Source: Gaiellales bacterium (GTDB lineage Bacteria; Actinomycetota; Thermoleophilia; RBG-16-64-13). Taken from it: a stretch of 52,968 nucleotides of DNA. Of the stretch, positions 10,503 to 17,077 are shown piece after piece. The translations under genes and the position numbers were made by a program. The notes under the pieces are model-generated. The model was not told where the DNA came from and made no database searches. It was given only the letters and a program-made list of their open reading frames with translations. The stretch covers positions 1 to 52,968 of the forward strand of contig JAAYAL010000078.1 of assembly GCA_012719395.1 (NCBI GenBank). The letters run 5' to 3'. The first letter of the stretch is position 1. Each line of letters begins with the position of its first letter.

Positions 10503-10772
10503 ATGAGCGTGGCCGATCAGCGCAAAGTATTTCTCTACGCCTTGAGCACCTGCGGCCACTGCAGGCACGCCCGGGAGTGGTTGGATGAACACCAGGTGGA
10601 GTATGACTACGTCTACGTGGACCAAGCCTCGGCCGAGGACCGCGCTCGCATCCTGGAGGAGACCAAGGATCTCAATCCGCGACGGGCTTTCCCCTGCCTG
10701 GTGATTGACGACGGCGCCAAGGTCATCGTCGGCTTCCGCGAGGAGGAGTACCAGGAGGCGCTTCAGGTATGA
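10503..10772 (+). CDS. Glutaredoxin-like thiol-disulfide oxidoreductase
   Basis: The ATG at 10503 is preceded by GAAAGGAG. The 89-residue product has a thioredoxin-fold start VFLYALSTCGHCRHAREWL with a CxxC active site (CGHC, residues 17-20), then YDYVYVDQ, and the cis-proline strand AFPCLVIDDGAKVIVGF. This is a glutaredoxin/NrdH-like single-domain protein. Its stop codon overlaps the start of the ferredoxin:thioredoxin reductase gene (GTATGA at 10767-10772), so the two are coupled; the reductase is therefore the likely electron donor, replacing NADPH-thioredoxin reductase or glutathione. An extra cysteine lies just after the cis-proline. Confidence 0.9.
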   Translation: MSVADQRKVFLYALSTCGHCRHAREWLDEHQVEYDYVYVDQASAEDRARILEETKDLNPRRAFPCLVIDDGAKVIVGFREEEYQEALQV

Positions 10773-11110
10773 GCGGGCTGACCGCCCAGCAGCTCTACGA
10801 GCGGCTTCGCCCGCTGCAGGAAGCCAAGGGCTACTACTTCAACAAGGACCTCACGGCCACCATGGAGCTCATAGAAGGCCTGGTCAGCAACCGGGAGCGC
10901 TATGGCTACATGTGTTGACCATGCCGCCTACCTTCCGGGGACCGGGAGGCCGACCATGACATCATCTGTCCGTGCGTCTACCGCGCGCCGGATGTTGCCG
11001 AATACGGCGCCTGCTACTGAGAACTGTACGTCTCCAGGGAATGGAACGAGGGCCTGGTACCGCGACAAGTAGTGCCGGAACGGCGCCCACCGGAGAAGAT
11101 GCCCTACTAG
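10769..11110 (+). CDS. Ferredoxin:thioredoxin reductase catalytic subunit, predicted selenoprotein with two UGA-encoded selenocysteines
   Basis: Reading from the ATG at 10769 (AGGAGG at 10753-10758) through UGA at 10916 and UGA at 11018 to TAG gives a 113-residue protein that matches the FTR catalytic subunit along its length: NKERYGY-like NRERYGYM, then C-U50-P-C52-[18 protein letters not shown], and [10 protein letters not shown]84-ELYVS. In the plant enzyme the CPC, CPC and CHC motifs provide four cluster ligands and the redox disulfide. By that alignment U84 is at the redox-active cysteine, paired with C52, and U50 is at a cluster-ligand position next to an extra C49. Conservation continues after both UGAs, and both are followed by SECIS-like hairpins. 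The enzyme would pass electrons from ferredoxin through a [4Fe-4S] cluster to the coupled glutaredoxin. A gene caller using UGA as stop sees only 49 residues. Confidence 0.88.
10931..10949 (+). promoter_or_regulatory. Putative bacterial SECIS element for UGA 10916
   Basis: CCTTCCGG pairs with CCGGGAGG (8 bp, one G-U) around loop GGA. The stem begins 12 bases after the UGA and the loop 20 bases after it. A loop opening with GG at this distance fits bacterial SECIS elements, which are read by SelB inside the coding sequence. Confidence 0.7.
11029..11048 (+). promoter_or_regulatory. Putative bacterial SECIS element for UGA 11018
   Basis: CGT pairs with ACG, then a bulged C (11032), then TCCA pairs with TGGA around loop GGGAA. 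The loop starts 16 bases after the UGA and opens with GG. A bulged pyrimidine in the upper stem is also a feature of the E. coli fdhF element. Confidence 0.65.
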
Positions 11111-14767: not shown

Positions 14768-17077
14768 CTAGGCGCACTTGGAATACCCGCACGCGCGGCA
14801 GACCACGCAGCCCCCTTCGTGCTCGATGGCCCCTCCGCACTCTGGACAGGCCCCCTGCGCGTAGGCAATGGGCATCTCCAGCTGCTCCACTTCCGTCTCG
14901 TGCTCGGCATACGGCATCTCCTGAAGGTACTTGTCGGCAATGGCCTTGGCAATGGCATCAGGGCAGGACAGGATTTGCCTGGGCCCCAGACCCAGCGGCA
15001 CGTGGCAGCGAATGCCTTTCAGCTGTTTGACGATCTTGTCCGGCGACGCGCCGTAGCGGAAGGCCAGTGATATGAGGCGCCCCATAGCCTCCGTGGAGGC
15101 AGAGGCGCAGCCACCCGCTTTCCCCATGTTGGCGAAGACCTCACGCGGACCCAAATCGTCCTCATTCACGGTCACGTAGAGGCTGCCGCAGCCGGTGATC
15201 TTCTCCCGCGTCTCACCGTGCAACACACCACCGCGGCTACCGCGGGGCGCCGCCGTGCGCTGCCCGCAGGTAGGGCAGAGGTCACCGGGCACGAATTCGG
15301 GCTTGTGACCGTTGCCCGACGCACCTCCCGCTTTCTTGACCTCCCCGATGCTGAGAACCTGGTCCACGCGAGAGCCGTCGCGGTAGATGGTCACGCCCTT
15401 GGCTCCCAGCTGGTAGGCCATCAGGTAGACGTTCTCCACCTCACTGGGGCCGGCGCTGTTGGGGAAGTTGACCGTCTTGGAGACTGCGTTGTCGGTGTGC
15501 TCCTGGAAAGCAGCCTGCATACGGATATGCCACTCCGGCGACACGTCATGCGCCGTGGCGAAGACCCGCTTCATGTCATCCGGCACACCCTCGATGTGGC
15601 GCAACGAACCTTTCGCGGCCACAGCGCGCATCAGCCCCGGGGAATAGAGGCCACGCGCCCTCGTGACCTCTTCGAAGAAGGGGTGGGCCTCCGGCAACTG
15701 GGTGTTGTCGAGCACGTTGCGAATGAAGGCAAGCGCAAACAGCGGCTCTATCCCGCTGGAGCTGCCGGCGATGATGCTGATGGTTCCCGTGGGGGCGATG
15801 GTGGTCAACGTGGCATTGCGCACCCGGCGCCCACGCGCCTCCCAGATGCTGCCCTCATAGTTGGGGAAGACTCCCCGCTCCTCAGCCAAGTCTTCCGAGG
15901 CCCTTATCGCTTCCGCATCGATGAATCCCATGACCTTGCGCGCCAACTCCTCGGCTTCCGGCGAGTCATATGGAATCCCCAGCCGCATGAGCATGTCCGC
16001 CCATCCCATGACTCCCAGCCCGATCTTCCGATTGCCCTTGGTCATGCGCTCGATCTCAGGTAGCGGATAGCGGTTCATATCTATCACGTTGTCCAGGAAC
16101 CGTACCGCGAGGCGCGTCACCCGGCGCAACTCGTCCCAGTCCACCTCCCCGTCCGTGACCATGAGCCGCAAATTGACGGATCCCAGATTGCAGGACTCAT
16201 ACGGCAGGAGCGGCTGCTCGCCGCAAGGGTTCGTGGACTCGATCTGCCCCACGTGCGGCGTGGGGTTATCGCGGTTCAGCCGATCCAGGAAGACAATCCC
16301 GGGCTCCCCGTTCTTCCACGCCAGATTGACGATGAGGTCGAAGACCTCGCGCGCCCTGTACCTGGCAACTTCCTGTCCGTCACGAGGGTTGCGCACGACG
16401 TATTCCCCGTTGTTGAGCACCGCCTGCATGAACTCCTCTGTCACGCCCACGGAGATATTGAAGTTGTTGAGGACTCCTTCGTCCTCCTTGGCGGTGATGA
16501 ACTCCAGGATATCCGGATGGTCAACACGGAGGATGCCCATATTGGCGCCCCGGCGGGTCCCACCCTGCTTGATGGTCTCCGTAGCCGTGTCAAACACTCG
16601 CATGAAGGACACCGGGCCGCTGGCCACTCCGTTGGTGGACTTCACAATGTCATTCTTGGGGCGCAGGCGGGAGAAGCTGAAGCCGGTGCCACCCCCCGAC
16701 TGGTGGACAAGCGCCGCATTCTTGATAGCGGTGAAGATGGACTCCATGCTGTCTTCCACCGGGAGCACGAAACAGGCAGACAGCTGCTGCAGGTCGCGAC
16801 CGGCATTCATGAGTGTGGGCGAATTGGGCAGGAACTTGAGGCCGGCCATGAGTTCGAAGAACTGAGCAGCCACACGATCCGGGTCCGCGCCCGGCTGATA
16901 ACCCCTCTCGGCTTGGGCAATGTTCTCCGCCACGCGCGCGAACATATCTGCCGCCGCCTCTACCGGGTTTCCCTCCTCATCTCGCTGCAGATACCTCTTC
17001 TGGAGGACAGTCACCGCACTGGGCGACAGGACGTTCTCCAAGGCTTTCGACAAAGCCCTCATCTGCGCCACCGTCAC
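14768..17077 (-). CDS. nrdJ: Adenosylcobalamin-dependent (class II) ribonucleotide reductase
   Basis: The 769-residue protein reduces ribonucleotides using coenzyme B12 and so needs no oxygen or activase. It shows LPNSPTLMNAGRDLQQLSACFVLP (first active-site Cys), GGTGFSFSRLRP, NPCGEQPLLPYESCNLGSVNL (NPCGE with catalytic Cys and Glu), IAPTGTISIIAGSSSGIEP, a TSCPD-type domain (ASASTEAMGRLISLAFRYG) and a C-terminal zinc-ribbon CPECGGAIEHEGGCVVCRACGYSKC. The terminal cysteines probably shuttle reducing equivalents from thioredoxin or glutaredoxin. The GTG start overlaps the nrdR stop (GTGA at 17077-17074). Co-transcription with nrdR and the NrdR boxes upstream indicate NrdR control. Confidence 0.97.
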   Translation of the reverse strand: MTVAQMRALSKALENVLSPSAVTVLQKRYLQRDEEGNPVEAAADMFARVAENIAQAERGYQPGADPDRVAAQFFELMAGLKFLPNSPTLMNAGRDLQQLSACFVLPVEDSMESIFTAIKNAALVHQSGGGTGFSFSRLRPKNDIVKSTNGVASGPVSFMRVFDTATETIKQGGTRRGANMGILRVDHPDILEFITAKEDEGVLNNFNISVGVTEEFMQAVLNNGEYVVRNPRDGQEVARYRAREVFDLIVNLAWKNGEPGIVFLDRLNRDNPTPHVGQIESTNPCGEQPLLPYESCNLGSVNLRLMVTDGEVDWDELRRVTRLAVRFLDNVIDMNRYPLPEIERMTKGNRKIGLGVMGWADMLMRLGIPYDSPEAEELARKVMGFIDAEAIRASEDLAEERGVFPNYEGSIWEARGRRVRNATLTTIAPTGTISIIAGSSSGIEPLFALAFIRNVLDNTQLPEAHPFFEEVTRARGLYSPGLMRAVAAKGSLRHIEGVPDDMKRVFATAHDVSPEWHIRMQAAFQEHTDNAVSKTVNFPNSAGPSEVENVYLMAYQLGAKGVTIYRDGSRVDQVLSIGEVKKAGGASGNGHKPEFVPGDLCPTCGQRTAAPRGSRGGVLHGETREKITGCGSLYVTVNEDDLGPREVFANMGKAGGCASASTEAMGRLISLAFRYGASPDKIVKQLKGIRCHVPLGLGPRQILSCPDAIAKAIADKYLQEMPYAEHETEVEQLEMPIAYAQGACPECGGAIEHEGGCVVCRACGYSKCA

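Follow-up and report, generated by a model that had tools for sequence, protein, structure and literature searches.

A ferredoxin-dependent disulfide reductase gene with two in-frame UGA codons predicted to encode selenocysteine at a cluster-ligand and a redox-active cysteine position

We asked whether two in-frame UGA codons within a short reductase gene of the window (the whole stretch of 52,968 nucleotides of bacterial DNA analyzed here) could encode selenocysteine (Sec), and which functions the two residues would then have in the enzyme. Reading of the frame from its ATG to its TAG gave two internal stops only, one TGA being codon 50 and the other codon 84 (Table 1), as in the preliminary description, where the frame had been described as open except for two UGAs. 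The read-through product matched the PF02943 profile well above the cut-off of 22 bits, over residues 17–93 and with both UGAs inside the match, and its predicted structure had a pLDDT of 90.2. Whole-genome search of the source genome (92 contigs, 2.43 Mb, 98% complete) found a single gene copy of the ferredoxin:thioredoxin reductase (FTR) or ferredoxin disulfide reductase (FDR) family, which is the one having two TGA codons. If UGA is read as Sec, the six-column pattern CPC/CPC/CxC of the family is satisfied as U50-P-C52, C67-P-C69 and C82-Y-U84, and when the protein is aligned with FTR and FDR chains of solved structure, U50 corresponds to the first Cys in CPC and U84 to the second one in CxC, which bears out the earlier assignment of both UGAs to cysteines of these motifs. 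Apart from the UGAs we found no defect in the gene, with the residues after codon 50 being conserved. The dN/dS ratio, as determined against the sister gene G002, was about 0.11 before, 0.12 between and 0.17 after the UGAs, which are rough values since dS was near saturation (1.0–2.3), and this ratio is unable to date a recent stop.

Table 1. Positions of the reductase gene, its UGA codons, the candidate SECIS hairpins and the neighboring glutaredoxin gene in the window
Feature	Coordinates	Strand	Details
Glutaredoxin-like protein, CGHC; predicted redox partner	10503..10772	+	PF00462 48.8 bits
FDR/FTR catalytic subunit gene, UGA at codons 50 and 84	10769..11110	+	113 residues; PF02943 71.7 bits
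UGA at codon 50 (first Cys in CPC, cluster-ligand column), predicted Sec; UGA seen here in the window gene only	10916..10918	+	
Candidate SECIS hairpin of U50	10931..10949	+	8 pairs, loop GGA at +20, -12.9 kcal/mol
UGA at codon 84 (redox Cys, second in CxC), predicted Sec; 19 further genes also have UGA here	11018..11020	+	
Candidate SECIS hairpin of U84, one bulged base	11029..11048	+	loop GGGAA at +16, -6.8 kcal/mol, weak

The best structural match of the window reductase was the Grx/FDR fusion protein of Desulfotalea psychrophila (7PWE), with chain B having the same fold (TMq 0.90, rmsd 0.8, 61% identity), chain A giving a Z of 19.4 and an rmsd of 2.3 over 112 residues, and residues 3–82 matching the glutaredoxin encoded upstream in the window. 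That protein is fused into a single chain and has all six cysteines, whereas in the window the two genes are separate, though overlapping, and two of the Cys columns have UGA. Next came the FDR of Methanosarcina acetivorans (4TPU), a chain of 173 residues deposited as rubredoxin, which has an all-Cys form of the same domain, with 50% identity to that of the window (Z of 16.9, and an rmsd of 1.4 for 105 residues). The plant and cyanobacterial FTRs (1DJ7, 2PU9 and 2PVD) have the CPC/CPC/CxC pattern in common with the window reductase, with 1DJ7 being about 26% identical to it (Z 8.4, rmsd 2.6 over 89 residues). Those enzymes possess a variable subunit, however, while PF02941 gave no match in the 98% complete source genome, with a Synechococcus control being positive, and a plant-type FTR heterodimer was therefore rejected. 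Of the initial view of the gene as encoding an FTR catalytic subunit, the family assignment held, while the type had to be revised from plant-type FTR to FDR, with a glutaredoxin and without a variable subunit. The start codon of the reductase gene overlaps the stop codon of the glutaredoxin gene, and a glutaredoxin gene was found directly upstream on the same strand at 167 of 175 loci, with duplicates of one gene counted separately. By analogy with these systems, the window reductase would probably be reduced by ferredoxin and in turn reduce a glutaredoxin, and we infer that its product carries a [4Fe-4S] cluster and performs ferredoxin-dependent disulfide reduction.

The cysteines of plant-type FTR are numbered Cys55, 57, 74, 76, 85 and 87, with Cys87 contacting the cluster. 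From the plant-type enzyme we take column 50 to be a cluster ligand, and U84 and C52 to occupy the positions of the two redox Cys, the former of which is in contact with the cluster. Selenocysteine usually substitutes catalytic rather than structural cysteines.

The source organism has the gene set of a complete selenocysteine trait as well as other selenoprotein genes. A tRNASec gene (selC) with anticodon TCA was found with 76.7 bits at C20:27415-27508, and on the same contig 20 lay adjoining selB (328 bits) and selA (549 bits) genes, at L018:8493-11887. A selD gene on contig 8 has its own UGA in the motif GUACKIG (L171:1531-1533), and fdhA on contig 51 (L173) has a UGA in the motif UHAPTV. 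All four genes, selA, selB, selC and selD, whose presence had been proposed as a check of the selenoprotein reading, were thus found, and this complete machinery supports that reading of the reductase. A second match to Fdh-alpha over the cut-off, on contig 73, was without UGA. With regard to selA, it was present in all 20 Sec-FDR genomes tested (window included) but also in 13 of 15 same-family genomes having Cys, so that selA is needed but does not discriminate between the two.

The case for U84 is built on conservation among relatives; a UGA at a Cys codon position is by itself weak evidence. G002, the sister gene (SH-aLRT 92), from another genus of the same family, has UGA at column 84 and TGT, encoding Cys, at column 50, and UGA84 is thus kept in two reductases of 72% protein identity. 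The gene was present in 59 of the 396 genomes scanned from the phylum. Apart from the window, 18 of the 59 carried one UGA, in all 18 cases at column 84; these 18 genomes belong to four other families (f26, f32, f47 and f54). The corresponding 18 loci (L184–L201, from G938, G837, G1072 and others) each encode an FDR with one Sec, at UGA84, downstream of a glutaredoxin gene. They have both of these traits in common with the window and differ from it in an intact CPC and in a clearer U84 hairpin. In the class, where 41 of 399 genomes had the gene, UGA was found only in the window and in G002, and among the best 80 of 203 relatives in a scan of species genomes, a UGA at a Cys column occurred only in L061, which is G002, with some of the query peptides of that scan having Cys at columns 50 and 84 and thus being biased against UGA genes. 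Of 395 genomes from the phylum to which the Desulfarculaceae MAG G399 belongs, 117 had the gene, all of them without UGA, with two of the matches being partial and ending before column 84. No relative was found among plasmid records, or on viral contigs when scanned using the alignment. These findings suggest that, in several families of the phylum of the window, FDRs with one Sec are common. This broad group of single-Sec FDRs is new, and a gene caller halting at UGA would shorten their genes.

We then counted the residues at the six columns in 139 distinct FTR/FDR genes that matched the pattern with either Cys or UGA demanded at each column, a set made up of best matches and tool-drawn genomes rather than a random sample. 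Column 84 had Cys in 119 and UGA in 20 of the 139 genes, and columns 52, 67, 69 and 82 had Cys in all of them, while column 50 had Cys in 138, with the window gene as the only one having UGA. The exchange of UGA and Cys between homologues, which had been proposed as a check for both sites, was accordingly seen at column 84, whereas at column 50 all genes other than that of the window had Cys. Left out of the set were L060, a partial match, and L133, which is the one of 175 gene-bearing loci that falls outside of the six-column pattern, having CSC in place of CPC and no UGA. A tree of the 139 genes gave three changes at Sec84, at least two of which were forced by starred branches, but a single Sec clade was not rejected (p-AU 0.46), so that this tree is compatible with one or several origins of Sec84. 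Taken together, the support for U84 as Sec is solid, being as strong as sequence comparison allows, and we hold it to be nearly certain that this UGA would be decoded as Sec.

The residue preceding U50 is a Cys, C49, which the preliminary description had regarded as an extra cysteine. It proved to be ordinary, since Cys is found at this position in 48 of the 122 CPCR-type genes, counting the window, with Ala, Ser, Leu, Gly and others in the remainder. A ligand at C49 special to the window protein was rejected on these grounds: a residue at once so common and so variable is unlikely to be a ligand, and with column 50 otherwise being Cys in 138 of 138 genes, the ligand column should be 50.

Candidate SECIS hairpins followed both UGA codons. 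An early scan, allowing loops of up to 14 bases, picked other hairpins for U84 and for G002 than the later scans, which used shorter loops. The U50 hairpin closely resembled, in offset and energy, that of selD in the same genome (loop GGA at +20, -12.8 kcal/mol), with the fdhA hairpin of this genome having a loop GGUCU at +18 and -12.1 kcal/mol. Only 2.9% of the 1427 TGAs of the window were followed by an equally good hairpin, and the window ranked second in hairpin energy at column 50 among 92 genes compared, as selected with a narrower gene pattern than that of the 139-gene set; four of the 91 Cys homologues reached -12.0 kcal/mol or lower. The z-score of the 45-nt fold was -0.70, and 10% of 600 synonymous recodings folded as well as the U50 hairpin. 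The latter test has little power, because the corresponding shares were 14% for selD, 8% for fdhA and 2–8% for five well-formed U84 sites (taken from the 17 other U84 sites). For U84, 26% of background TGAs had a hairpin as good as its best one in that comparison (-6.9 kcal/mol), the fold z was +1.02, and with a stricter rule the hairpin with loop GGGAA had -6.1 kcal/mol, with 16% of recodings being as good. An alternative overlapping hairpin, having a loop GGAACG at +22 and -7.0 kcal/mol, was slightly better than that with loop GGGAA. The U84 hairpin of G002 was weaker than that of the window, with 68% of background TGAs and 58% of recodings being as good. As U84 is well supported by conservation and yet has a weak hairpin, hairpin energy is a poor judge here. 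The bulged U84 hairpin may resemble the fdhF element of Escherichia coli.

Twelve of the 17 other single-Sec loci had the sequence CCAGG-AGGU-CCUGG after UGA84, and the remaining five had a variant thereof. A looser signature, CCRG-N2-7-YGG at +13 to +17, was common to U50, U84, selD, fdhA, the U84 of G002 and 12 of the 17 other U84 sites. It was found at 58 of the 1427 background TGAs and, where the genes have Cys, at 15 of 138 sites in column 50 and at 16 of 119 in column 84. Having been defined after the sites were seen, and with U50 failing if TGG is demanded in place of YGG, this signature lends weak support to the Sec sites. Hairpins with a G-led loop 16–20 bases after the UGAs, as described beforehand, were thus present, at +20 and +16, but as controls fold similarly, they are compatible with SECIS elements without being diagnostic of them.

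How, then, should UGA50 be read? We consider Sec at this position to be likely, i.e. probable rather than established. The reading that we favor, with Sec at both positions 84 and 50 and with U50 as a cluster ligand, was given a probability of roughly 0.55. An alternative would be that only UGA84 encodes Sec, with UGA50 having arisen recently by nonsense mutation or stemming from an erroneous consensus in a metagenome-type assembly, and the gene thus a broken or misread single-Sec FDR. We judge this to be unlikely, albeit with some weight. UGA50 is confined to one genome, being found in one of 139 genes, with G002 having Cys in its place, and the U50 hairpin is statistically unexceptional in view of the four Cys homologues, the recodings and the z-score given above. 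Moreover, five of the seven codons that, aside from the UGAs, are one substitution from TGA in the window gene are Cys codons, so that a random nonsense change would mostly strike Cys and the position as such is weak evidence for Sec. Such a recent event is at odds, however, with a gene that is otherwise without defect and has conserved residues past codon 50, with a hairpin geometry that is that of the selD element of this genome, and with the precedent for a second Sec in FTR given by the 2008 report (PMC2398784).

The two UGAs could also both encode Sec with C49 taking the ligand place, whereby U50 would become a second redox group beside C49 or C52. The adjacency of C49 and U50 makes such an arrangement conceivable, but the variability of column 49, set against the Cys otherwise invariably found at column 50, makes it rather improbable. 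That UGA would be read as another residue in the source organism, such as Trp, might be thought of in view of two in-frame UGAs in one gene; however, both UGAs fall at Cys columns, the selD and fdhA UGAs are located at usual Sec motifs and a tRNASec with anticodon TCA is present, for which reasons Trp or a general UGA reassignment was rejected as exceedingly improbable.

We next compared the predicted protein, having U50 as well as U84, with selenoproteins of this family in the literature. It had been uncertain at the outset whether any selenium-containing FTR had been reported, and this proved to have been the case already in 2008, when two FTR selenoprotein sequences were reported from GOS data, one of these reads having two predicted Sec residues that exactly matched both of the redox-active Cys residues (PMC2398784). 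An NCBIfam entry, NF041072, also exists for an FTR selenoprotein family, listed in a review with the motif CxU and the number 2, which we take as the Sec count (PMC13188914). The GOS read and the window gene are both FTR catalytic subunits with two predicted Sec; the Sec residues of that read are located at both redox Cys (PMC2398784), whereas the first Sec of the window is predicted at the other Cys of CPC, with C52 kept, a comparison of Sec columns made with the read. The predicted first Sec of the window FDR is hence in a new position, since within CPC it replaces the ligand Cys and not the redox one. The NF041072 model (FtrB_double_U) gave 50.8 bits for the window, under its cut-off of 160, and 49–63 bits for four relatives (three single-Sec, including L185 with 63 and L199 with 49, and one all-Cys), whereby the window and these relatives fall outside of that family. 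Searches of the literature for Sec at Fe–S clusters, for ferredoxin disulfide reductase and for an FtrB selenoprotein in Actinobacteria brought up nothing recognizable as the motif of the window, which is no proof of its absence. Those on Fe–S clusters yielded no natural example of Sec as a [4Fe-4S] ligand, though one may be described elsewhere. Selenium near Fe–S clusters is not unheard of, as predicted selenoproteins are listed among 2Fe–2S and other Fe–S proteins in the review cited above (PMC13188914).

In the mechanism that we propose, the gene pair would provide a glutaredoxin together with its own ferredoxin-dependent disulfide reductase, as a split form of the Desulfotalea Grx–FDR fusion. 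Reduced ferredoxin would deliver electrons one at a time to the [4Fe-4S] cluster, and the cluster together with the redox pair C52/U84, a selenenylsulfide when oxidized, would reduce the disulfide at CGHC in the glutaredoxin, enabling the latter to serve client proteins; this route from ferredoxin via the cluster and C52/U84 to glutaredoxin is modeled on the related enzymes. Decoding of UGA84 by the SelA, SelB, SelC and SelD of the genome would place selenium on the cluster-touching residue during turnover. With UGA50 most likely also being Sec, one of the four cluster ligands would be a selenolate and the others thiolates. That two selenocysteines would thereby meet on one [4Fe-4S] cluster, U50 as a natural, genetically encoded selenolate ligand and U84 as the redox residue contacting the same cluster, is in our estimate an even bet. 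If U50 is real, selenium would be found in the first coordination shell of an Fe–S cluster, and the effect of a selenolate ligand on cluster potential could be tested in a two-step disulfide reductase. As to putative clients, the large chain of a ribonucleotide reductase, containing a TSCPD domain, is encoded on the minus strand at 14768–17077, 3.7 kb from the glutaredoxin–FDR pair, and is a possible electron acceptor of that pair.
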